Source: Sulfurimonas sp. (lineage in GTDB: Bacteria; Campylobacterota; Campylobacteria; Campylobacterales; Sulfurimonadaceae). Taken from it: 9,367 nucleotides of DNA. Under the pieces are notes generated by a model. It saw only the letters and a program-made list of their open reading frames with translations, made no database searches and was not told where the DNA came from. The translations under genes were made by a program, and so were the position numbers. Location: NCBI GenBank assembly GCA_022712775.1, contig JAFLJZ010000220.1:1-9367 (forward strand), read 5' to 3'. Positions 194 through 9,367 of the stretch are shown in pieces (position 1 is the stretch's first letter; every line of letters begins with the position of its first letter).

Positions 194-1435
194 ATGGCAC
201 AAATAAAAAATAGATTAACGCCGTTTTTTGAGAATATAACATTTGATAGAGATGACAATGAGTTAGTACTAAACTTTGGTCCGCAGCATCCATCTGCACA
301 TGGTCAGTTGCGTTTAATGCTTCACTTACAACAAGAACAAATTGTAAAAGCACAACAAGATGTAGGTTACTTGCACCGTGGTATGGAAAAAATGGCTGAA
401 AACATGATTTACAATGAGTTCATGCCAACAACAGATAGAATGGATTATATCGCTTCATCTTCAAATAACTATGGTTTTGCACTTGCGGTTGAAAAACTAA
501 TTGATTTCGATGTACCTCGTCGTGCGAAAGTTATTCGTATGATGCTTTTAGAGATTAACCGTTTAATGTCTCACCTTTTTTGGTTAGCTACGACTGCACT
601 TGATATTGGAGCTATGACAATCTTTCTTTACGCATTCCGTGAAAGAGAGTACTTAATGGATATTATCGAGGGTTATTGTGGAGCGAGACTTACTCACGCT
701 GCAATTAGAATCGGTGGTGTACCTTTAGATATTCAAGACACGTTTATTCATCAATTAAGAACCTTCTTAAATAAACTACCTCAAAACATTAAAGACTATG
801 AAGATCTTCTTGATACAAATAGAATTTGGTTAATGCGTATGGAAGAAGTTGGAGTTATTTCTAAAGAGATGGCACTTTCTTGGGGTTGTACTGGTCCAAT
901 GCTTAGAGCTTCTGGCGTTCAATGGGATATTCGTAAAGAAGAGCCGTATGAATTATATGATGAAATAGAGTTTAATGTTCCTTGGTCTGATAAGGGTGAT
1001 AACTTTGCTCGTTACCGTGTTTATATGCAAGAAATGCGAGAAACTGCAAAGATTCTTTATCAAACAATAGCGATGTATGAAGAGTGTGTTAAAAATGGAG
1101 ACACTGCTTTAATGGCACATGCTCCTAAATATATATCTGCTCCTAAACTAGACATTATGACGCAAAATTATTCTCTTATGCAACACTTTGTTCTTGTAAC
1201 ACAAGGTATGCGACCTCCTGTTGGAGAAGTGTATGTAGCAACTGAATCACCAAAAGGTGAGCTTGGTTTCTTTATTAATTCTCAGGGTGGACCGTATCCA
1301 TACAGATTGAAGCTTCGTGCTCCATCGTTCTGGCATACAGGAATTTTAACTGACCTTTTACCTGGTCATTATATTCCAGATGTTGTTTCTATTATTGGAA
1401 CAACTAACATAGTTTTTGGAGAGGTTGACAGATAA
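194..1435 (+). CDS. nuoD: NuoD, 49-kDa-type quinone-site subunit of complex I
   Basis: The 413-residue protein is full length for the family. NuoD, with NuoB, forms the quinone-reduction site and derives from the large subunit of [NiFe] hydrogenases. Residues 28-37 read [10 protein letters not shown], the family signature, and DRMDY lies at 81-85. His36 and Tyr85 have the same 49-residue spacing as His38 and Tyr87 of Thermus Nqo4, the known quinone head-group ligands. The C-terminus keeps [13 protein letters not shown] and ends VFGEVDR, as usual. One oddity is [12 protein letters not shown] near the end, where bacterial and mitochondrial homologues generally have Asp (SLDP or TQDI). The hydrogenase-type cysteine pairs are absent, as expected for complex I. 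The start at 194 gives the expected N-terminus and follows GGGCGG at 182-187. The stop TAATG overlaps the next ATG. Confidence 0.97.
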
Positions 1436-1533
1436 TGAGAGCAAAAAGTAAAAAGCTTTACTTTTGTAACGCAGATACTACTGATATACAATTCGGAGTG
1501 CGAGAGCAGTTCATTAGTAAGGAAGAAAATTAA
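1435..1533 (+). CDS. Possible 32-aa protein between nuoD and nuoE
   Basis: An ATG at 1435 overlaps the nuoD TAA by one base (TAATG) and opens a 32-codon frame whose TAA overlaps the next ATG in the same way. The product begins [20 protein letters not shown] and is basic at the N-terminus, with one cysteine and no membrane segment. GGAGAGG at 1418-1424 is a plausible but somewhat distant ribosome-binding site. One-base stop/start overlaps at both ends are typical of translational coupling, and a frame bridging the gap exactly is suggestive. I do not recognise the sequence and assign no function. It could instead be a leader ORF that keeps ribosomes moving to nuoE, or chance in AT-rich DNA. Confidence 0.5.
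   Translation: MRAKSKKLYFCNADTTDIQFGVREQFISKEEN
1444..1465 (+). other. AT-rich inverted repeat (possible mRNA hairpin) after nuoD
   Basis: AAAAGTAAA at 1444-1452 and TTTACTTTT at 1457-1465 are perfect reverse complements around the 4-base loop AAGC. The stem has one G-C pair among nine, so it is weak. There is no T-run after it, only GTAAC, so it does not look like an intrinsic terminator. It lies nine bases past the nuoD stop and could mark mRNA processing or modulate translation of the small ORF. Chance is also possible in such AT-rich sequence. Confidence 0.4.
1519..1525 (+). promoter_or_regulatory. Ribosome-binding site of the NuoE-position gene
   Basis: AAGGAAG lies seven bases before the ATG at 1533, inside the end of the 32-codon ORF. 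It supports the 1533 start for the 73-residue protein and allows ribosomes to initiate there independently of coupling. Confidence 0.7.
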
Positions 1534-1754
1534 TGAAAAGATATGATTTAAGACATTTAAGAGCAGAATTTGAACCTCGCATGAAAGAAATTTTAGGTGA
1601 GCATAAAGCGGGTGAAGTTGCTATATTTATTTTTGAAATAGGTGACTTTACTTCAGTTCAAAAATCAGCAGATTTAGCAAAAGAGAGTGGTTATGAACTA
1701 ATGAACTCTTTAAAATTTAACGAAGTCGATTGGACTATCGTATTAAAAAAATAG
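1533..1754 (+). CDS. nuoE: Small complex I protein in the nuoE position (Campylobacterota type)
   Basis: This 73-residue protein starts MKRYDLRHLRAEFEPRM and ends FNEVDWTIVLKK. It resembles the short conserved protein that Campylobacterota carry between nuoD and the NuoF replacement (annotated NuoE, the Cj1575c type, from memory). A true NuoE is about 160 residues with a thioredoxin-like fold and four cysteines holding [2Fe-2S] cluster N1a. This protein has no cysteine at all, so it cannot hold that cluster. It looks soluble, with alternating helix and strand, and is probably structural in the input module or a docking factor for the electron donor. That role is inference. The reading frame ends in AAA AAA TAG, and AGGAA overlapping the stop serves the next gene. 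Confidence 0.85.
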   Translation: MKRYDLRHLRAEFEPRMKEILGEHKAGEVAIFIFEIGDFTSVQKSADLAKESGYELMNSLKFNEVDWTIVLKK

Positions 1755-1764
1755 GAATTATTTT

Positions 1765-3798
1765 ATGAGTAAAGTCTATTTTTCAACTTGGAATGGAGAA
1801 TCTATAAATAATATAGGTAAACCAGAAGAAGAGTGGGAGGAATCAGCTTACAATTTGCCTGCTACATATGATGATCACCGTGATTCTCGTGCCTTTATAG
1901 GTTGGGATGGTGTTGCATTATTTGACGCAGATGTAGTTGTTATCCGTTTAGCGATGGAATATGCTGCACAATATCAAGTTTATTCTGAAGCATGTGGAAG
2001 ATGTGCACCTGGTAGATGGGGTGGACAAATTCTTTATGATACTCTGGATAAAATTGCGCGCGGCGCGGGTGCTGTATCTGATTTAGACCACTTAAAAGAG
2101 ATTGGTAAAAGTATGCAAGTTACTTCAAAGTGTGAGATTGGAAAAACTGTTCCAAATCCTATACTAGATTTAATGGAACATTTTGATGATGTTTTTATGG
2201 ATGCCATTAATAACCAAACAAAATCAAAACATTATGATGAAACTATTGGATACATTGCTAAAATAACTGCACCATGTACTGATGCGTGTCCATCGCATGT
2301 TGATATTCCTGGATATATTGAGGGTGTAAGAGATTTACGCTTTGATGATTCTCTCCAAGCAACAAGACAAACAATGCCTCTTGCTCATGTTTGTGGTCGT
2401 GTGTGTCCACACCCATGTGAAGATGCGTGTAGAAGATCAAATCTTGATGAGCCTATCTCGATTATGGCACTGAAGCGTTTAGGTGCTGATTGGGAAACTG
2501 ATCACGGATATGACTTTTTCCATCCAATGCAAAAGCAGCCAAGTAATGGTAAAAAAGTAGCTATTATTGGTGCTGGTCCTGCTGGATTAACAGCTGCGTA
2601 TTATCTTGCTGCTGATGGTGTGGAAGTTGATTGTTATGAAGAACTACCTGTTCTTGGCGGTGAAGTAACAGTTGGTGTTCCAGAGTACCGTATGCCATGG
2701 GAAAAGTATCTTAAAGATATCGAATGTGTAAAAGATATGGGCGTAAATTTTATTATGAATCATAAAGTAAGTGCTGATGATATGCGTACATTTGAGAAAG
2801 ATTATGATGCGACTATGATTGCATCAGGTACAAGACTTTCTAAAAAAGTACGATGTGATAATGAAAGACCTGAGATAGAGGGTTATTGGGGAGCTATTGA
2901 TTTTCTTGATCGTGTAAATCTTTATGAAAAGTTTGATATTAAACTTACACAAGCTCAGAAAAAAGAGTACGCAATAGATGCTGACTTTGTTGATTTAACA
3001 GGTAAAACTATTGCCTGTGTTGGTGGTGGTTTTACATCTATGGATGTTGTTCGTTGTTCAATTAGAGCAGGAGCTACGCGGGTAATTATGATTTATCGTC
3101 GTGATGAAAAAACAATTATTCGTAATACTACCTATGAAGAGTACCACGAAGCTGTTGAAGAGGGCGTAGAATTTATGTTCCACTCAGCAGTTAATACTAT
3201 GAATGACGAGAATGATGTACTTAAGTCGCTTCTTGTTGATAAGTTTGAACTTGTTCCTGACCCTGATGGTGGTCGTGCACAACTTGTAAAAATTGAAGGA
3301 GCATCAGAAGTTATTGATGTTGATTATCTTATACCAGCTGTTTCACAAGCTCCTGAATTTTCTCACTTGCCTGAAGAATGGGAATTTGCTATGACATCAT
3401 GGGGAACACTTCTTACAAATGGTAAAGATTATATGACTTCACGCGATGGTATCTTTACAGCTGGAGATTGTGAGTATGGTCCAATGACAATTGTAAATGC
3501 AGTTGGTCAAGCTAAACGCGCAGCTTCAGTTATGAGTAGATACATTCATACAAAAGAAGTTACCTTAACTGATGATGAGATTATGGAAGATCATCTTATG
3601 AAGTTAAAGGTATATAACAAGAAAGAAAAAATCACTGGATGGTTACCTGGACTTAAACGTGAGCATAGTACAGTTTTAGATGCAGATTTTAGAAAACATA
3701 ACAATGAAGAAGTTAACTTAGGTTTCACACAAGATGAAGCTATGAGTGAAGCTGACCGTTGTATGCGTTGTTATTACATCGCTATGGTTCAAGCGTAG
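1765..3798 (+). CDS. NuoF-replacing fusion: N3-type Fe-S domain plus GltD/NfnB-like FAD, NAD(P)H module
   Basis: This 677-residue flavoprotein probably feeds electrons into complex I. Residues about 44-140 match the C-terminal part of NuoF: GWDGVALFDADV, then EACGRCAPG at 75-83 and SKCEIGK at 121-127. These equal the ESCGKCTPC and second-cysteine regions that hold cluster N3, but the third ligand is Gly83 instead of Cys. The FMN/NADH-binding first part of NuoF is absent. Residues 171-240 are a GltD/DPYD-type Fe-S domain with C171, C175, C210, C214, C218 and C222 (VCGRVCPHPCEDAC). An FAD site GAGPAG follows at 269-274, a pyridine-nucleotide site GGGFTSMD at 420-427 with YRR at 444-446, and a second FAD motif FTAGD at 564-568. 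The tail carries RCMRC (C666, C669). AGGAA sits seven bases before the ATG. It is not ordinary glutamate synthase: there is no gltB and the N3 domain is attached. NADH versus NADPH preference cannot be told. Confidence 0.88.
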   Translation: MSKVYFSTWNGESINNIGKPEEEWEESAYNLPATYDDHRDSRAFIGWDGVALFDADVVVIRLAMEYAAQYQVYSEACGRCAPGRWGGQILYDTLDKIARGAGAVSDLDHLKEIGKSMQVTSKCEIGKTVPNPILDLMEHFDDVFMDAINNQTKSKHYDETIGYIAKITAPCTDACPSHVDIPGYIEGVRDLRFDDSLQATRQTMPLAHVCGRVCPHPCEDACRRSNLDEPISIMALKRLGADWETDHGYDFFHPMQKQPSNGKKVAIIGAGPAGLTAAYYLAADGVEVDCYEELPVLGGEVTVGVPEYRMPWEKYLKDIECVKDMGVNFIMNHKVSADDMRTFEKDYDATMIASGTRLSKKVRCDNERPEIEGYWGAIDFLDRVNLYEKFDIKLTQAQKKEYAIDADFVDLTGKTIACVGGGFTSMDVVRCSIRAGATRVIMIYRRDEKTIIRNTTYEEYHEAVEEGVEFMFHSAVNTMNDENDVLKSLLVDKFELVPDPDGGRAQLVKIEGASEVIDVDYLIPAVSQAPEFSHLPEEWEFAMTSWGTLLTNGKDYMTSRDGIFTAGDCEYGPMTIVNAVGQAKRAASVMSRYIHTKEVTLTDDEIMEDHLMKLKVYNKKEKITGWLPGLKREHSTVLDADFRKHNNEEVNLGFTQDEAMSEADRCMRCYYIAMVQA

Positions 3799-3807: not shown

Positions 3808-6057
3808 ATGGATAAAATTATTAATTTTACAATTGATGGAAAAAGTGTAGAAGCTCAAAAAGGCGAAACTATTCTTCAAGTAGCGCGTAAAAATAGTATC
3901 TACATTCCTACTATGTGTTATATCTCAAAAACTACACCATGTGCGTCGTGTCGTATGTGTGTTGTAGAGGCTGAGGGGCTTGAAGGATTTGTGCTTTCTT
4001 GTAATACTCCTCCAACAGAGGGTGTTGAAATTACAACTAACTCAAATAAACTAGAACATGAACGTACAAATATTATGAAGCTTTATGATGTAAATCATCC
4101 TCTTGAATGTGGTGTATGTGATAAGTCTGGTGAGTGTGATTTACAAAACAAAACTTTAGAGTTTAATGTAGGTCAACAAAACTTTGCTGCAAAAGATATA
4201 TCTCGCAAGATAGAAAACTGGGGAATGATTAATTATGACCCTGCTCTTTGTATTTTATGTGAAAAATGTGTACATGTTTGTAATGAAGTGATTGGTGATG
4301 ATGCTATTGATGTTAAGTTTGGTGGATATAGTTCAACTATCATTCCTAAAAATAACGATACACTTGATTGTACTTTCTGTGGTGAATGTATCGCTGTTTG
4401 TCCAGTTGGAGCACTTGTAAGTTCGGATTTCCAATATACTGCAAATGCATGGGAATTATCTCGTGTCCCTGCTACTTGTGCACATTGTTCAGGTGGTTGT
4501 TCATTAGAGTATGAAACAAGAGAAGCTGGAATCAATGGTGACAGAACAATTTATAGAGTGAAAAACAACTTTGAATTTACTAATCTTTGTGGAGCTGGTC
4601 GTTTTGGTTTTGACTTTGATAATAAATCTGAAAAAAATCAAGCTGAGTTAAACAAAGCTGTAGAAGCAATCAAAGAAGCTAAAGCTATTCGTTTTTCTTC
4701 GATGATTACAAATGAAGAAGCATATATGTTAGGCGAGTTAAAATCTAAATTTGGAATGAAGCTTTTCAATGAAGATGCTCGTCTTTTTGCTTCATTTATG
4801 TCTTCTTATTCAAGTGTAAGTGGTAAAAAACATTATAGTGGTTCACTTGATGCGATTAAACAATCTCATGCGGTGATTATTATTGGTTCTAGAATCGCAA
4901 CGGATAATCCAGCTGTGAGATACGCTCTAACTACAGCGTCTCGTCATAATGGTGCAAAAATAGTTTATGCACATCCGATAGAAGATTCTCTTATGAAAAA
5001 TACAGCTACACAACTGATGAAGTATGAAGCTGGTTCAGAAGAGGGTGTGATGGCTCTTTTAGCGAATGAAATTTTAAAAGATGCAGATTTAGAAGAAACC
5101 GAGAGAGCATTTTTTGATGGTTTAGACTTAGGTTATTTAGGTGCTGAGAGTAATATAGGAGAAGAAGAAGTTTCATCAATGATGCAATCTTTTTCTCGTG
5201 CAAAAAACCGTATTTTAATTATAGGTTCTGATATTATTGCGCATCCATGTGCACAAAATATTGCAAAACTTGCAGCACTTATTGAAAAATATAGTGAATT
5301 TTCTTTAGTGGTAGTTCCATCGGAAGTAAATACACTGGGTGTTTCACTTATAAATGACTTAGATGTGGATGAAGTTACTATTGATGTTGTTGGTTATAAC
5401 GCACATGGAAACTTTGTGATTTCGTCCTTAGAATTTGCAAATCTTTCTATTCCTTCATTAAACAGCCAAGAGGGAACTTTTGTAAGTATAGATAACCGTG
5501 TAGTTCCAACAAATGCAGCACTTGAGTTTAATGGGTATACATTAAATGATATTCTCAAGGCTTGTGGAATTAGACATAAAAATACTATTGATTGTACAAA
5601 ACTTCTTGATTCTAAAGCTGGATTTAAAGCGATTGACTTTGATTCACTTGAAAACTTTTTAACTCCACATGGAGATGATGATAGAGGCTATCTTCTTGAT
5701 GAAGTTACTTGTAAGATGACTGGAAAACTTGATTCTATACAAGACTTACCAGAATTTAATTCAACTGTGATTTATCACTCTAATCCAGTTTTACAGTTTA
5801 ACGCATATACAAATACTACTTCGCAACTTGAACGTGATACAACTTTAAGAGGTTCCGCACAGTTTGCACAAGCTGCAAAAATTTCTGATGGAGATAGAAT
5901 AGAGATTACATTTGGCTCCAAAACTATACTAAGAGAGTTTAAATTAGACGAAGATTTAAAGGGAACAATAGCACTTAACCCAACATTTGATATAGCAGTC
6001 GATTCTGGTAAGTATAAATTTGAAAAATCCAAAATAGTGAGAGTAACTAATGAGTAA
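3808..6057 (+). CDS. nuoG: NuoG1, Fe-S subunit G of complex I (first of two copies)
   Basis: The 749-residue protein carries electrons from the input flavoprotein to the NuoI/NuoB chain. Cluster ligands can be read in order: [2Fe-2S] N1b at C37, C48, C51 and C65; N5 at H97, C101, C104 and C110 (HPLECGVCDKSGEC); two complete CxxCxxCxxxC motifs at C148/151/154/158 and C188/191/194/198; and an N7-type site at C224, C227, C231 and C261. Standard NuoG has only three cysteines of the first motif plus one of the second (N4), so here a dicluster ferredoxin domain like that of HydA/HoxU is predicted. From about residue 280 follows a degenerate molybdopterin-oxidoreductase fold that ends SKIVRVTNE, with no sign of a functional molybdenum site. 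It is a paralogue of the next gene. Its last 8 bases overlap nuoG2. Confidence 0.95.
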   Translation: MDKIINFTIDGKSVEAQKGETILQVARKNSIYIPTMCYISKTTPCASCRMCVVEAEGLEGFVLSCNTPPTEGVEITTNSNKLEHERTNIMKLYDVNHPLECGVCDKSGECDLQNKTLEFNVGQQNFAAKDISRKIENWGMINYDPALCILCEKCVHVCNEVIGDDAIDVKFGGYSSTIIPKNNDTLDCTFCGECIAVCPVGALVSSDFQYTANAWELSRVPATCAHCSGGCSLEYETREAGINGDRTIYRVKNNFEFTNLCGAGRFGFDFDNKSEKNQAELNKAVEAIKEAKAIRFSSMITNEEAYMLGELKSKFGMKLFNEDARLFASFMSSYSSVSGKKHYSGSLDAIKQSHAVIIIGSRIATDNPAVRYALTTASRHNGAKIVYAHPIEDSLMKNTATQLMKYEAGSEEGVMALLANEILKDADLEETERAFFDGLDLGYLGAESNIGEEEVSSMMQSFSRAKNRILIIGSDIIAHPCAQNIAKLAALIEKYSEFSLVVVPSEVNTLGVSLINDLDVDEVTIDVVGYNAHGNFVISSLEFANLSIPSLNSQEGTFVSIDNRVVPTNAALEFNGYTLNDILKACGIRHKNTIDCTKLLDSKAGFKAIDFDSLENFLTPHGDDDRGYLLDEVTCKMTGKLDSIQDLPEFNSTVIYHSNPVLQFNAYTNTTSQLERDTTLRGSAQFAQAAKISDGDRIEITFGSKTILREFKLDEDLKGTIALNPTFDIAVDSGKYKFEKSKIVRVTNE
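4393..4418 (+). repeat. 26-base direct repeat, copy in nuoG1
   Basis: This stretch is identical base for base to 6701-6726 in nuoG2. In both genes it encodes AVCPVGALV in the same codon phase, at the end of the second ferredoxin motif. Confidence 0.85.
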
Positions 6058-8542
6058 TAATATTACAATCAATATTGACGGAAAAGAGATTCAAACGCAA
6101 GAAGGCACATTTATTTTAAATGCGGCTCGTGCGAATGATATTTTTATTCCTGCAATATGTTATTTAACACGATGTAGTCCGACACTAGCGTGCCGTATAT
6201 GTCTTGTTGAAGTTGATGGAAAACAAGCATATGCTTGTAATGCTAAAAGTAAAGATGGTATGTCTATTAGTACTTCAACCCAAAACATTGAAAAAGAACG
6301 CCGTGCCATTATGGAAGTATACGATGTGAATCATCCTCTTCAATGTGGTGTTTGTGATCAATCAGGTGAATGTGAACTACAAAACTATACACTAGAAATG
6401 GGTGTAGATAGTCAGTCTTACGCAGTAAAAGATGTAGATAGAACTTCTCATGATTGGGGACACTTACATTATGATCCGGGTCTTTGTATCGTTTGTGAGC
6501 GTTGTACTACTGTTTGTAAGGATATGATTGGTGATAACTCTTTAACAACTATTGCTCGTGGTGGTGATGCACTTGAAGCTAGTTATAAAGAAGAGATGCC
6601 AAAAGATGCGTATGCTATGTGGAACAAACTTAACAAGTCAGTAATTGGTTTAACGAATGCAACTGATGTACTTGATTGTACTTCGTGTGGAGAATGTGCG
6701 GCTGTTTGTCCAGTTGGAGCACTTGTTAATACGCAGTTTATGTATACATCAAATGCTTGGGAGTTAAGTCAAGTTCCTGCTACATGTGGACATTGTTCTG
6801 CTGGTTGTCAAATTTCTTATGATATTAAGCATACTAGCATTGATAATCCAGAAGATAAAATTTACCGTGTTATGAATGAATGGAACTATGTTTCTCTTTG
6901 TGGTGCAGGTAGATATGGATTTGATTATCAAAATGCTGATGTTACTAAAGATAAAGCTTCATTTGACAAAGCTATTGAAGCTTTCAAAAAAGCTGATACT
7001 ATTAAGTTTACTTCAACGATTACAAATGAAGAAGCATTAATTCTTGAAAAACTAAAAGATAAATTTGGATATAAACTTGTAAATAATGAAGCAAAAGCAT
7101 TCCAAACATTTTTAGCAGATTATTCTTCACTTAGTGGAACACGACTTTATGGAAGTGATTTAAAAGAGATGGCTTCAAGTGGTTTCCTTGTTTCAATAGG
7201 AACTGCATTAAAAACAGATAATCCAAATGCAAGATATGCATTTAATAACTCACTTACTGTTAATAAAGGTGCAGGATTATATTTTCATCCAGTATCTGAT
7301 CCAATTGTAGATGGTTTAAGTAAAAATATCATGAGTATTAAACATCAGCCATTACAAGAAGAAAGTGCATTGTATTTATTACTTGATTTATTCGGAGATA
7401 AAGAGGCAATGCCTTGTGATGTTGTTGACTACTTAGCATCTTTTCACTCGATGAAAACTATAACAGTCGAAGAAACTATTAAAGAAAAAGTAGTTACGAT
7501 TGTTAAAGAGATGAAGAAGAATGAAGAAACTGGAGAAGAGGAAGAAGTTGAAGTTGAAAAAACGAAGATGGTTCCTAAAAAAGTTTCTAAAGAAGTTGAA
7601 GTAGATGACAATAGACTACTTACGATGCTCAGCGCTCCTGAAAACTTTACTGAATCACTTGAGAAGTTTTTAAAGAAAAAAGAAACTTTCTCTTTAGTAG
7701 TTGGAGCTGATTTATATAATCATCCAAACTCTAAAAACTGTGCAAGACTTGTTGCTCTAATTGAAAAGTATTCTAAATTTACAGTTGTTATGATTCCGAC
7801 ACTTACAAATACTTTGGGTGTATCTCTTATTAATGACTTATCTTCGACAGAGGGTGAGTGTAGTATAGGATATAATACTAAAGGTGATTTCACATTATCA
7901 GCATTAGGTGATGGAGATTTAGATATGCCAGCTATTAATCAGCAAGAGGGGACCCTTACTTCTATCAACAAAAGAGTAAATCCTACAAATGCTGCACTTG
8001 GATATAGTGGATATATTTTAAATGATATTGCAAATGCACTTGGTCTTGAAGCAGAATTAACAGTAGATTATACAAAAGAGTTACCTACTAGAAAAGGTTT
8101 TAGCGCAGTAGAGTTTGACTCTTTACCTAACCATTATACAAATGCTGGTGAAGAGATGCGTGGATATAAACTAAAAAATATGGGTAGAAGTATTTCTAAA
8201 GATGAAAGCGTAGCCAAAATTGATGAAGACTTATCGCTTGACGGTTCTTTGATATACGCAGCAAACCCAGTACGACAGTTTAGTGATTTTACAAATAAAA
8301 CTAGCAATCTTGATGAGCAAAGTGGTATCTACATGAGTGAAGAATATTTAAATAGTTCTGACTTTAATGCAGGTGATAGTGTGAGAGTTAAAAGTGAAAA
8401 TGGTGAAATAACTGCAAATATAGTTAGTGATAATAAAATCGCTGGTAGTATTGTAGTAATTCCAAATTTTGATTCTAAATTAAATTCAGAGGCTTTGTTT
8501 GACGGTTACCGTTTTGCAACAGCTTCGATACAAAAGGTGTAA
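6050..8542 (+). CDS. nuoG: NuoG2, Fe-S subunit G of complex I (second copy, with charged insertion)
   Basis: This 830-residue paralogue of NuoG1 keeps the same ligand sets: C37, C48, C51, C63 (N1b); H95, C99, C102, C108 (N5); two complete ferredoxin motifs at C146/149/152/156 and C210/213/216/220; and C246, C249, C253, C284 (N7). The two ferredoxin motifs are 53 residues apart against 29 in NuoG1, owing to an insert around 170-205. A second insert, about 474-519, is highly charged (GEEEEVEVEKTKMVPKK) and absent from NuoG1. The C-terminal degenerate molybdopterin fold aligns with NuoG1 through conserved NTLGVSLINDL and QEGT. At 830 residues it is closer than NuoG1 to the length I remember for Campylobacter NuoG. 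The ATG at 6050 lies inside the end of nuoG1 (8-base overlap, ATGAGTAA), so translation is probably coupled. The stop is four bases from nuoH. Confidence 0.95.
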   Translation: MSNNITINIDGKEIQTQEGTFILNAARANDIFIPAICYLTRCSPTLACRICLVEVDGKQAYACNAKSKDGMSISTSTQNIEKERRAIMEVYDVNHPLQCGVCDQSGECELQNYTLEMGVDSQSYAVKDVDRTSHDWGHLHYDPGLCIVCERCTTVCKDMIGDNSLTTIARGGDALEASYKEEMPKDAYAMWNKLNKSVIGLTNATDVLDCTSCGECAAVCPVGALVNTQFMYTSNAWELSQVPATCGHCSAGCQISYDIKHTSIDNPEDKIYRVMNEWNYVSLCGAGRYGFDYQNADVTKDKASFDKAIEAFKKADTIKFTSTITNEEALILEKLKDKFGYKLVNNEAKAFQTFLADYSSLSGTRLYGSDLKEMASSGFLVSIGTALKTDNPNARYAFNNSLTVNKGAGLYFHPVSDPIVDGLSKNIMSIKHQPLQEESALYLLLDLFGDKEAMPCDVVDYLASFHSMKTITVEETIKEKVVTIVKEMKKNEETGEEEEVEVEKTKMVPKKVSKEVEVDDNRLLTMLSAPENFTESLEKFLKKKETFSLVVGADLYNHPNSKNCARLVALIEKYSKFTVVMIPTLTNTLGVSLINDLSSTEGECSIGYNTKGDFTLSALGDGDLDMPAINQQEGTLTSINKRVNPTNAALGYSGYILNDIANALGLEAELTVDYTKELPTRKGFSAVEFDSLPNHYTNAGEEMRGYKLKNMGRSISKDESVAKIDEDLSLDGSLIYAANPVRQFSDFTNKTSNLDEQSGIYMSEEYLNSSDFNAGDSVRVKSENGEITANIVSDNKIAGSIVVIPNFDSKLNSEALFDGYRFATASIQKV
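6701..6726 (+). repeat. 26-base direct repeat, copy in nuoG2
   Basis: This is the second copy of the identical 26-base stretch at 4393-4418, 2308 bases downstream and in the same codon phase. A shorter identical 20-base pair lies at 4704-4723 and 7018-7037, encoding ITNEEA in both genes. Confidence 0.85.
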
Positions 8543-8545
8543 TAT

Positions 8546-9367
8546 ATGGAAGTAGCATATTTAATTGAGACGATAATAAAAGTTGTTGTCGTTCTAACTA
8601 TATTTTCAGCACTCGCTGGTATAGGGACTTATTTTGAGCGTAAGGTTCTTGCCTTCATGCAACGCCGTCTTGGACCAATGAATGTTGGACCTTATGGATT
8701 ACTGCAAGTTGCAGCGGATGGTATAAAACTATTTACTAAAGAAGATATTATTCCTACAAATGTTGTAGCACCTATCTTTAAAATAGCACCAGTTATTACT
8801 GCTTCTACAGCATTTATGGCAGCAGCGGCTATTCCATTCTTACCAGAATTTACACTCTTTGGATATACAGTGCGTCCAATTATCTCGGATATTAATATCG
8901 GTATTTTATATATCCTTGGGGTTATGGGAATTGGTCTTTATGGTCCACTGCTTGGCGGTATGGCCTCAGCAAATAAGTTTTCTTTACTTTCTGCTGCTCG
9001 TGCGGCTGCTGTGTTTATCTCGTATGAAGTAGTTACTGGTCTTTCAATTCTTGTTCCAATTATGATGGTTGGTTCATTGTCTTTGATTGATTTTAATAAT
9101 TATCAAATTGAAAATGGTTGGATAGTATTTAATCTTTATGGGGCTGGTTTTGTAGCTTTTATTTTATTTTGGATTGCAGCATTTGCTGAAACTGGTCGTA
9201 CACCATTTCACCTTATAGCAAATGACCATGAAATTATTGATGGTTTTGGTACTGAGTATTCAGGTATGCGATGGGGTCTTTTCTTCATCGGTGAATATGC
9301 AAATATGTTCTTTATATCATTTGTAATTCCACTTCTTTTTCTTGGTGGTTACGGTGATGGTTCACTT
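8546..9367 (+). CDS. nuoH: NuoH, membrane quinone-tunnel subunit of complex I (N-terminal 274 residues)
   Basis: The frame opens at ATG 8546, three bases after the nuoG2 stop, and is still open at the window end. Family length is about 330 residues, so roughly the last 50-60 are missing. NuoH joins the peripheral and membrane arms and forms much of the quinone tunnel. The first membrane helix is about residues 10-30, followed by FERKVLAFMQRRLGP (30-44) and ADGIKLFTKEDIIP (57-70), both signatures. Further hydrophobic segments lie near 75-98, 114-140, 155-185 and 195-215. TEYSGMRWGLFFIGEYANM (236-254) is also conserved. Two spots differ from the usual consensus: GPMNVGP instead of GPNRVGP (43-49), and the loop AETGRTPFHLIANDHEIIDG (214-233) instead of AETNRxPFDLPExExELVAG. 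The latter changes several acidic positions at the tunnel entrance. No strong ribosome-binding site is visible, so coupling to nuoG2 is likely. Confidence 0.97.
   Translation, partial: MEVAYLIETIIKVVVVLTIFSALAGIGTYFERKVLAFMQRRLGPMNVGPYGLLQVAADGIKLFTKEDIIPTNVVAPIFKIAPVITASTAFMAAAAIPFLPEFTLFGYTVRPIISDINIGILYILGVMGIGLYGPLLGGMASANKFSLLSAARAAAVFISYEVVTGLSILVPIMMVGSLSLIDFNNYQIENGWIVFNLYGAGFVAFILFWIAAFAETGRTPFHLIANDHEIIDGFGTEYSGMRWGLFFIGEYANMFFISFVIPLLFLGGYGDGSL

Follow-up and report, generated by a model that had tools for sequence, protein, structure and literature searches.

Among the described systems that come closest to the one examined here are the NuoXY complexes I, represented by C. jejuni Cj1575c/Cj1574c and by H. 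pylori HP1264 and its neighbor. Flavodoxin has been reported (C. jejuni) and ferredoxin proposed (S. multivorans) as electron donors of such complexes (PMC4178425, PMC4585668, PMC6682613), and FMN binding has been reported for HP1264 (PMC6269979). A second point of comparison is SfrB: SfrAB takes part in NADP regeneration (PMC13186404), and in M. thermoacetica, sfrB2 codes for the beta subunit of an NADPH-dependent formate dehydrogenase (PMC13040438). A third is provided by the StnABC/NfnABC transhydrogenases, in which recombinant StnC binds FAD and oxidizes NADPH (PMC7483475). We analyzed a 9367-base window of Sulfurimonas sp. (contig JAFLJZ010000220.1; the window is the whole stretch of DNA studied) that covers part of a nuo operon, nuoD-nuoX-fusion-nuoG1-nuoG2-nuoH. 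In the place of NuoF, this operon encodes an SfrB-like fusion subunit of 677 aa (positions 1765..3798, forward strand, like all genes of the window).

Judging from sequence comparisons, the fusion is probably the subunit through which electrons enter the Campylobacterota-type complex I; it belongs to a sister branch of SfrB and would be NADPH-linked. The two-domain protein is already known; new is its use in the NuoEF place of complex I, and this place and its three-Cys N3 site set the variant apart.

Domain architecture of the fusion subunit

The intact open reading frame of the fusion begins with an N3-like domain (aa 73-145, 1981..2199) that matches NADH_4Fe-4S (PF10589, E 7e-19), the N3 domain of NuoF. 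It continues with a Fer4_20 domain (PF14691, E 2e-24; aa 168-247, 2266..2505) and an FAD/pyridine-nucleotide domain (Pyr_redox_2, PF07992, E 4e-25; aa 263-583, 2551..3513), and ends with a C-terminal cysteine pair, Cys666/Cys669, in the segment RCMRC (3760..3771). Fer4_20 combined with a two-dinucleotide fold assigns the second module to the GltD/NfnB type. The Complex1_51K domain (PF01512) was not matched in a Pfam scan of the fusion and the other window proteins, and thus the FMN/NADH fold is absent from the fusion. Compared with canonical 51-kDa NuoF, the fusion shares the N3 domain, which is C-terminal in NuoF, as well as NuoE-like and NuoG gene neighbors, but it lacks the FMN/NADH fold, has one N3 Cys replaced by Gly, and carries an added GltD-type module. 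The initial annotation, made from the letters of the window, had read this gene as the retained Fe-S tail of a NuoF without its FMN/NADH fold, followed in the same polypeptide by a GltD/NfnB-like flavin and pyridine-nucleotide module with two Fe-S sites, and the domain matches agree with it on both counts.

The predicted single-chain structure of the fusion is in line with this assignment, as the closest folds among the 50 structural matches listed are chains of NfnABC/StnABC. NuoF chains are not among these 50 because the GltD domain fills the list; NuoF proteins do turn up in the sequence search with the fusion. Like the fusion, StnABC/NfnABC combine a GltD-type module followed by a cysteine pair with NuoE/F/G-like parts, but there the NuoG-like chain includes the GltD part as a fusion, and the NuoF-like subunit retains a flavin/NADH site of its own (PMC7483475).

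The N3-like site (Cys77, 1993-1995; Cys80, 2002-2004; Gly83, 2011-2013; Cys123, 2131-2133) has the motif CxxCxxG...C. The canonical third Cys is Gly83 in all 116 distinct proteins, which represent 120 full-length fusion copies (some loci were fetched twice, and five loci with split or cut frames were excluded from this set). Among 71 NuoF-type matches, this position is Cys in 68 and Gly in 3. The six cysteines of the Fer4_20 domain (Cys171, 175, 210, 214, 218, and 222) are invariant and align with NfnB and DPD-A. The other two of the eight Fer4_20-cluster cysteines, Cys666 and Cys669, are C-terminal in the fusion, a permuted position relative to NfnB and DPD-A, since NfnB-type proteins have the pair at the front. 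The pair is present in 115 of the 116 proteins, and its RCMRC segment aligns with the N-terminus of NfnB and DPD-A and also with the C-terminal side of the GltD part of StnC/NfnA-type chains. Cys666 and Cys669 are therefore probably the permuted completion of the first Fer4_20 cluster.

In the FAD/pyridine-nucleotide domain, the YRR motif (Y444-R445-R446, 3094-3102) and Arg309 (2689-2691), which aligns with Arg201 of P. furiosus NfnL/SudA, are both invariant. The latter residue bears on flavin-based bifurcation or confurcation, by which the FAD would split the NADPH electron pair between menaquinone and a low-potential carrier, or join the two in reverse. The P. furiosus arginine has been linked to the potential of the bifurcating FAD (PMC7483475), the NfnABC/StnABC enzymes that provide the closest listed folds are bifurcating, and an FMN-binding protein, HP1264 (PMC6269979), is the homologue of NuoX. 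However, the same Arg occurs in 120/120 SfrB-type proteins, none of which is called bifurcating in the parts of the literature found. In addition, the NuoF flavin/NADH fold of StnB/HydB is absent, no second pyridine-nucleotide site is recognized, and a NuoF-like PF01512 partner is missing from the window proteins and from 9 of the 10 fusion genomes tested. We consider bifurcation quite improbable. A bifurcating complex I, which would send NADPH electrons to menaquinone and to ferredoxin or flavodoxin with the NuoX FMN and the open-site three-Cys cluster as branch points, is likewise an improbable arrangement. If it existed, the proton gradient could drive the formation of NADPH as well as that of reduced ferredoxin to supply the reverse Krebs cycle, and the complex of Campylobacter and Helicobacter, fed by flavodoxin, would be the low-potential branch left after deletion of the NADPH branch.

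Place in the nuo operon and relationship to SfrB

The fusion is encoded between NuoX and NuoG inside the nuo operon, the arrangement expected of a subunit of the Campylobacterota-type complex I. Its upstream neighbor is nuoX in 120/120 full-length loci and its downstream neighbor nuoG1 in 116/116 loci with enough contig, followed by a further nuoG in 98/98. The 80 kept loci, the best 80 of 214 related ones and leaning to Sulfurimonas, match the fusion over almost its entire length with 74-91% identity, and a fusion or fragment (called at E below 1e-60) is found in 136 of 248 genomes of the order, whose completeness is unstated. This breadth of near-full-length relatives excludes chance as the source of the fusion. 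The closest kept locus, with a fusion 91% identical, belongs to the metagenome-assembled genome Sulfurimonas sp. Faavne_M6_B13. The NuoX family PF16514 matches at E 0.001 or better in 133 of the 136 fusion genomes, one of which, G214, has a weak match only.

Across 86 loci, distances between fusions correlated with those of NuoD, NuoH, NuoG1, and NuoG2 (Pearson 0.93, 0.89, 0.93, and 0.96, respectively), compared to 0.97 for NuoD against NuoH. Median distances were 0.66 for NuoG1, the fastest, 0.46 for NuoG2, 0.27 for the fusion, 0.24 for NuoH, and 0.17 for NuoD.

A complete nuoE and nuoF elsewhere in the genome would have spoken against a replacement, and a check of seven Sulfurimonas genomes revealed no such pair. 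PF01512 was matched in 0/7 and PF01257 over cut-off in 0/7 (with weak sub-cut-off matches in 5), and PF10589 was over cut-off once per genome in 7/7, in a frame of fusion length (678-681 aa). In the test of 10 fusion genomes, the sole PF01512 match was in G008; among all 136 fusion genomes of the order, 35 have some PF01512. Weak matches (E 1e-4 to 1e-7) were partly N3 tails in NuoF-length frames and partly other flavoproteins. Two loci, L126 of fusion genome G157 (with the one longer frame viewed in a fusion genome) and L128 of fusion-less G235, encode a long NuoF-like protein of 539-574 aa close to a protein of 239-250 aa (250 aa at L126) read as HoxU-like. These pairs probably represent a hydrogenase or formate dehydrogenase module, and the one at L126 was not read as complex I.

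The operon data also bear on whether the fusion and NuoG1 form a separate soluble NADPH oxidoreductase, similar to SfrAB, outside complex I. SfrAB has been called a soluble Fe(III) reductase (PMC7483475), and loci either have the fusion together with the Fe-S part of NuoG1 or lack the two jointly. Nevertheless, the fixed place after nuoX, the co-divergence with NuoD and NuoG2, the absence of PF01512 as another electron input from nine of the ten genomes, and the retention of the C-terminal part of NuoG1 as NuoY in fusion-less loci, as expected of a structural part of the complex, make such a soluble enzyme very improbable.

In a sequence search, the most divergent copy, L133 (named for Helicobacter sp. 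13S00401-1), retrieved fusions named for H. aurati, H. bilis, and other Helicobacter as well as those of the Sulfurovum type, next the metagenome protein P0169, and then NuoF-type proteins. A search with P0169 led to a large family (best 120 of 7990 matches), several members of which are named for Desulfuromonadales. For one of these, P0263 (Geothermobacter), the UniRef name starts with NADPH-Fe(3+), and we read it as SfrB; this protein aligns with the window fusion over its full length (37% identity, 678 alignment columns, E 5e-145) in the same domain order. A quick tree of the GltD region unites the fusions of Campylobacterota and Helicobacter in a single clade (SH-aLRT 100). Next to this clade are the SfrB-type rows (fork 99), and the other rows carry long-branch warnings.

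SfrB, the beta subunit of NADPH:Fe(III) oxidoreductase (Geobacter SfrAB; M. thermoacetica SfrB2), was represented in the comparison by SfrB-named and SfrB-type proteins. These have in common with the fusion the domain order, the RCxxC pair, the CxxCxxG start of the N3 site, and the FAD and NADP motifs. The YRR motif is invariant across the aligned fusions and SfrB-type proteins, and Gly at position 83 is likewise found in 120/120 of the latter. The N3 site distinguishes the two groups: Cys 77, 80, 121, 123, and 126 are invariant in the 120 SfrB-type proteins aligned, whereas only Cys 77, 80, and 123 are conserved in 136/136 Campylobacterota rows (which include one repeat, as P0121 and L133 are the same protein), and Cys121 and Cys126 occur in none. 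The fusion, which also differs by its location in a complex I operon next to NuoG1, is therefore a sister branch of SfrB and not SfrB itself. The Helicobacter fusions P0121-P0129 are longer (724-962 aa), and in the two sequences viewed the N3 domain and the GltD module are separated by long inserts.

The same two domains, with a canonical four-Cys N3 site, are also found in a Collinsella protein beside an [FeFe] hydrogenase. On this plasmid record (L192:4719-9485), the N3-GltD protein has a 4Fe-4S dicluster protein on one side and the hydrogenase on the other, a gene set that suggests an NADPH-linked hydrogenase. A fusion newly invented inside complex I was rejected as an explanation, since the SfrB-type and Collinsella proteins share both domains. 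The suggestion in the initial annotation that the input had been newly rebuilt here was not supported, because the same domains already occur in the same order in Desulfuromonadales and Collinsella proteins; its question whether the architecture always lies in nuo operons has a divided answer, yes for 120/120 full-length Campylobacterota loci and no for Collinsella.

The window has spacers of 10 bases between nuoX and the fusion and of 9 bases between the fusion and nuoG1, and an 8-base overlap of nuoG1 and nuoG2. Its first gene, nuoD (413 aa, 194..1435), matches PF00346 and TIGR01962 above cut-off. The following nuoX (1533..1754) encodes a 73-aa NuoE replacement of the HP1264 type, putatively FMN-binding (PF16514, E 1.6e-36), which matches H. 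pylori NuoE (HP1264, PDB 2lxr) with E 9e-21. Downstream of the fusion are nuoG1 (749 aa, with the Fe-S part; 3808..6057), nuoG2 (830 aa, 6050..8542; PRK08493, 1157 bits), and nuoH (8546..9367, cut by the window end; PF00146). In the related operon L001, nuoABC lie upstream and nuoIJKL and part of nuoM downstream. Both NuoG proteins have eight Cys in ferredoxin-dicluster spacing (C148, 151, 154, 158 and 188, 191, 194, 198 in NuoG1) and a further Cys set beyond them (C224, 227, 231, 261); canonical NuoG has fewer Cys in the domain holding this dicluster-like set. An insert of low complexity and high charge, with many Glu, Lys, and Val residues, occupies aa 473-522 of NuoG2. Promoter-like sites (29 found vs. 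37.9 expected) and terminator-like sites (7 vs. 3.8) gave no clear signal in the window.

NuoY in relatives without the fusion

In 65 genomes of the order, PF16514 occurs without the fusion, and 28 fusion-less nuoX loci were taken from 27 of them. In 27 of the 28, the gene order is nuoD-nuoX-nuoY-nuoG2 with a NuoY of 245-339 aa, and in the remaining one (L168) a 472-aa NuoG1 aligns from residue 272 on, without the Fe-S part. Thus, nuoG1 is truncated in all 28 loci, 27 times to the small NuoY. A profile of 23 NuoY sequences matched NuoG1 with E 5e-67 and NuoG2 with E 5e-27. A profile of four H. pylori-type NuoY sequences matched NuoG1 with E 5e-18 and NuoG2 with a probability of 0.6% only; one of the four comes with a NuoX that shares 73 of 74 positions with PDB 2lxr. 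An origin of NuoY as an unrelated replacement was rejected by this profile comparison. The initial annotation had contrasted the fusion with small replacements in Campylobacter and Helicobacter. This contrast is of another kind than it supposed, as NuoY of the fusion-less loci, including the H. pylori type, is a truncated NuoG1. Campylobacter NuoY would be one too; of the named sequences of Campylobacter, H. pylori, and Geobacter for these genes, the comparison covered PDB 2lxr.

Compared via these loci, NuoXY complex I has the same operon, with orthologues of NuoX, NuoD, NuoG2, and NuoH, but it differs in the absence of the fusion and in the reduction of NuoG1 to NuoY. NuoG2 proteins of loci with and without the fusion form one clade (support 100). 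In a quick NuoD and NuoH tree, the fusion state changes six times, with five of the changes forced by starred branches, and it changes seven times in the tree without outgroup. A single loss, with the NuoY rows as one clade, was rejected (p-AU 9e-38, 26 rows vs. 36) in a test on a quick tree, with the group named after the tree had been seen. The simplest reading of these sequence data is that one ancestral module, including the Fe-S half of NuoG1, was lost repeatedly and independently. The fusion and this half of NuoG1 lie side by side, so that one deletion can remove both. As assembled, one genome, G128, has two NuoXY-type nuo operons without the fusion (L180 and L181).

The fusion-less loci also help to assess a protein-carrier input, by which ferredoxin or flavodoxin would feed the complex and the FAD/NADP site would be a side branch, a ferredoxin:NADP oxidoreductase built into complex I. 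The donors named above for C. jejuni and S. multivorans are such carriers, POR/OOR electrons are described as going to Nuo in S. denitrificans (PMC6682613), and NfnB combines a ferredoxin site and an NADP(H) site in a single chain (PMC7483475). On the other hand, carrier input seems not to need the fusion, since the whole of it and the Fe-S half of NuoG1 are absent from 28/28 NuoXY-type loci, and Pfam matched no separate ferredoxin domain in the fusion. We regard carrier input to the fusion-containing complex as rather unlikely; the lack of an NADPH module in the carrier-fed NuoXY type offers a reason for its differing electron donor.

Proposed electron path and significance

In the path favored here, with the fusion as the NADPH-linked entry subunit, NADPH would reduce the FAD in the GltD-type fold. 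Single electrons would then pass through both 4Fe-4S sites in Fer4_20, the first of which would be closed by the C-terminal RCxxC pair, and on to the three-Cys N3-like cluster, which would dock on NuoG1 as NuoF does on NuoG. From NuoG1 they may continue through NuoG2 and NuoI to menaquinone, with proton pumping; NuoX would lie beside the fusion. The choice between NADH and NADPH leans to NADP(H) on sequence grounds. Chemolithoautotrophic Sulfurimonas probably run this path backwards on balance, with the proton gradient pushing quinol electrons uphill to NADPH; in N. profundicola, reverse electron flow to NAD(P)H has been proposed for a partial complex I without nuoE, F, G, and K (PMC2628731). 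Several lineages, one of them H. pylori-like, would have lost the fusion along with the Fe-S half of NuoG1, so that only NuoY, the C-terminal part of NuoG1, is left.

Several observations weigh against this interpretation. The order of NuoG1 before NuoG2 is a guess, the YRR motif is not proof of NADPH use, and for the complex I members NADPH oxidation and the flavin are suggested by homology. The SfrB identity likewise rests on database names, and NCBI names P0263 differently, as dihydropyrimidine dehydrogenase subunit A. PMC6682613 lists S. denitrificans among the organisms whose POR/OOR feed Nuo, and 17 of the 136 fusion genomes have a PF01512 frame under 500 aa. Within the fusion, Lys237 at the second Fer4_20 cluster corresponds to Glu in NfnB and DPD-A. 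The last residues of the model have low confidence (block pLDDT 29-48), and closure of the permuted cluster is therefore not seen in it; with three Cys only, the N3-like site is uncertain as a one-electron relay. As to the losses, the branching order at the base of the nuo tree is uncertain, and the outgroup is far. NuoG1 is not one clade, since the divergent rows L131, L133, L134, and L137 lie outside the fork that unites the other NuoG1 rows with NuoG2 (97, starred), perhaps due to long branches. L139 and L140 change position between the nuo tree and the fusion tree, so that transfer is possible for them.

The public names of the fusion, 'formate dehydrogenase beta subunit' and 'FAD-dependent oxidoreductase', have kept this subunit hidden; at JGI, formate dehydrogenase (NADP+) beta subunit is among the names given to members. 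The parts of the literature found mention the replacement of NuoEF by NuoXY, and neither this fusion nor the origin of NuoY, although an earlier notice is possible. If the proposed function is correct, complex I of many vent, sediment, and groundwater bacteria would be NADP(H)-linked and probably reversible, which would bear on the NADPH supply of sulfur-oxidizing autotrophs. The puzzling NuoY of the Helicobacter- and Campylobacter-type complex would be a relic of a second NuoG that is without its flavoprotein partner, leaving complexes that are fed by carriers.
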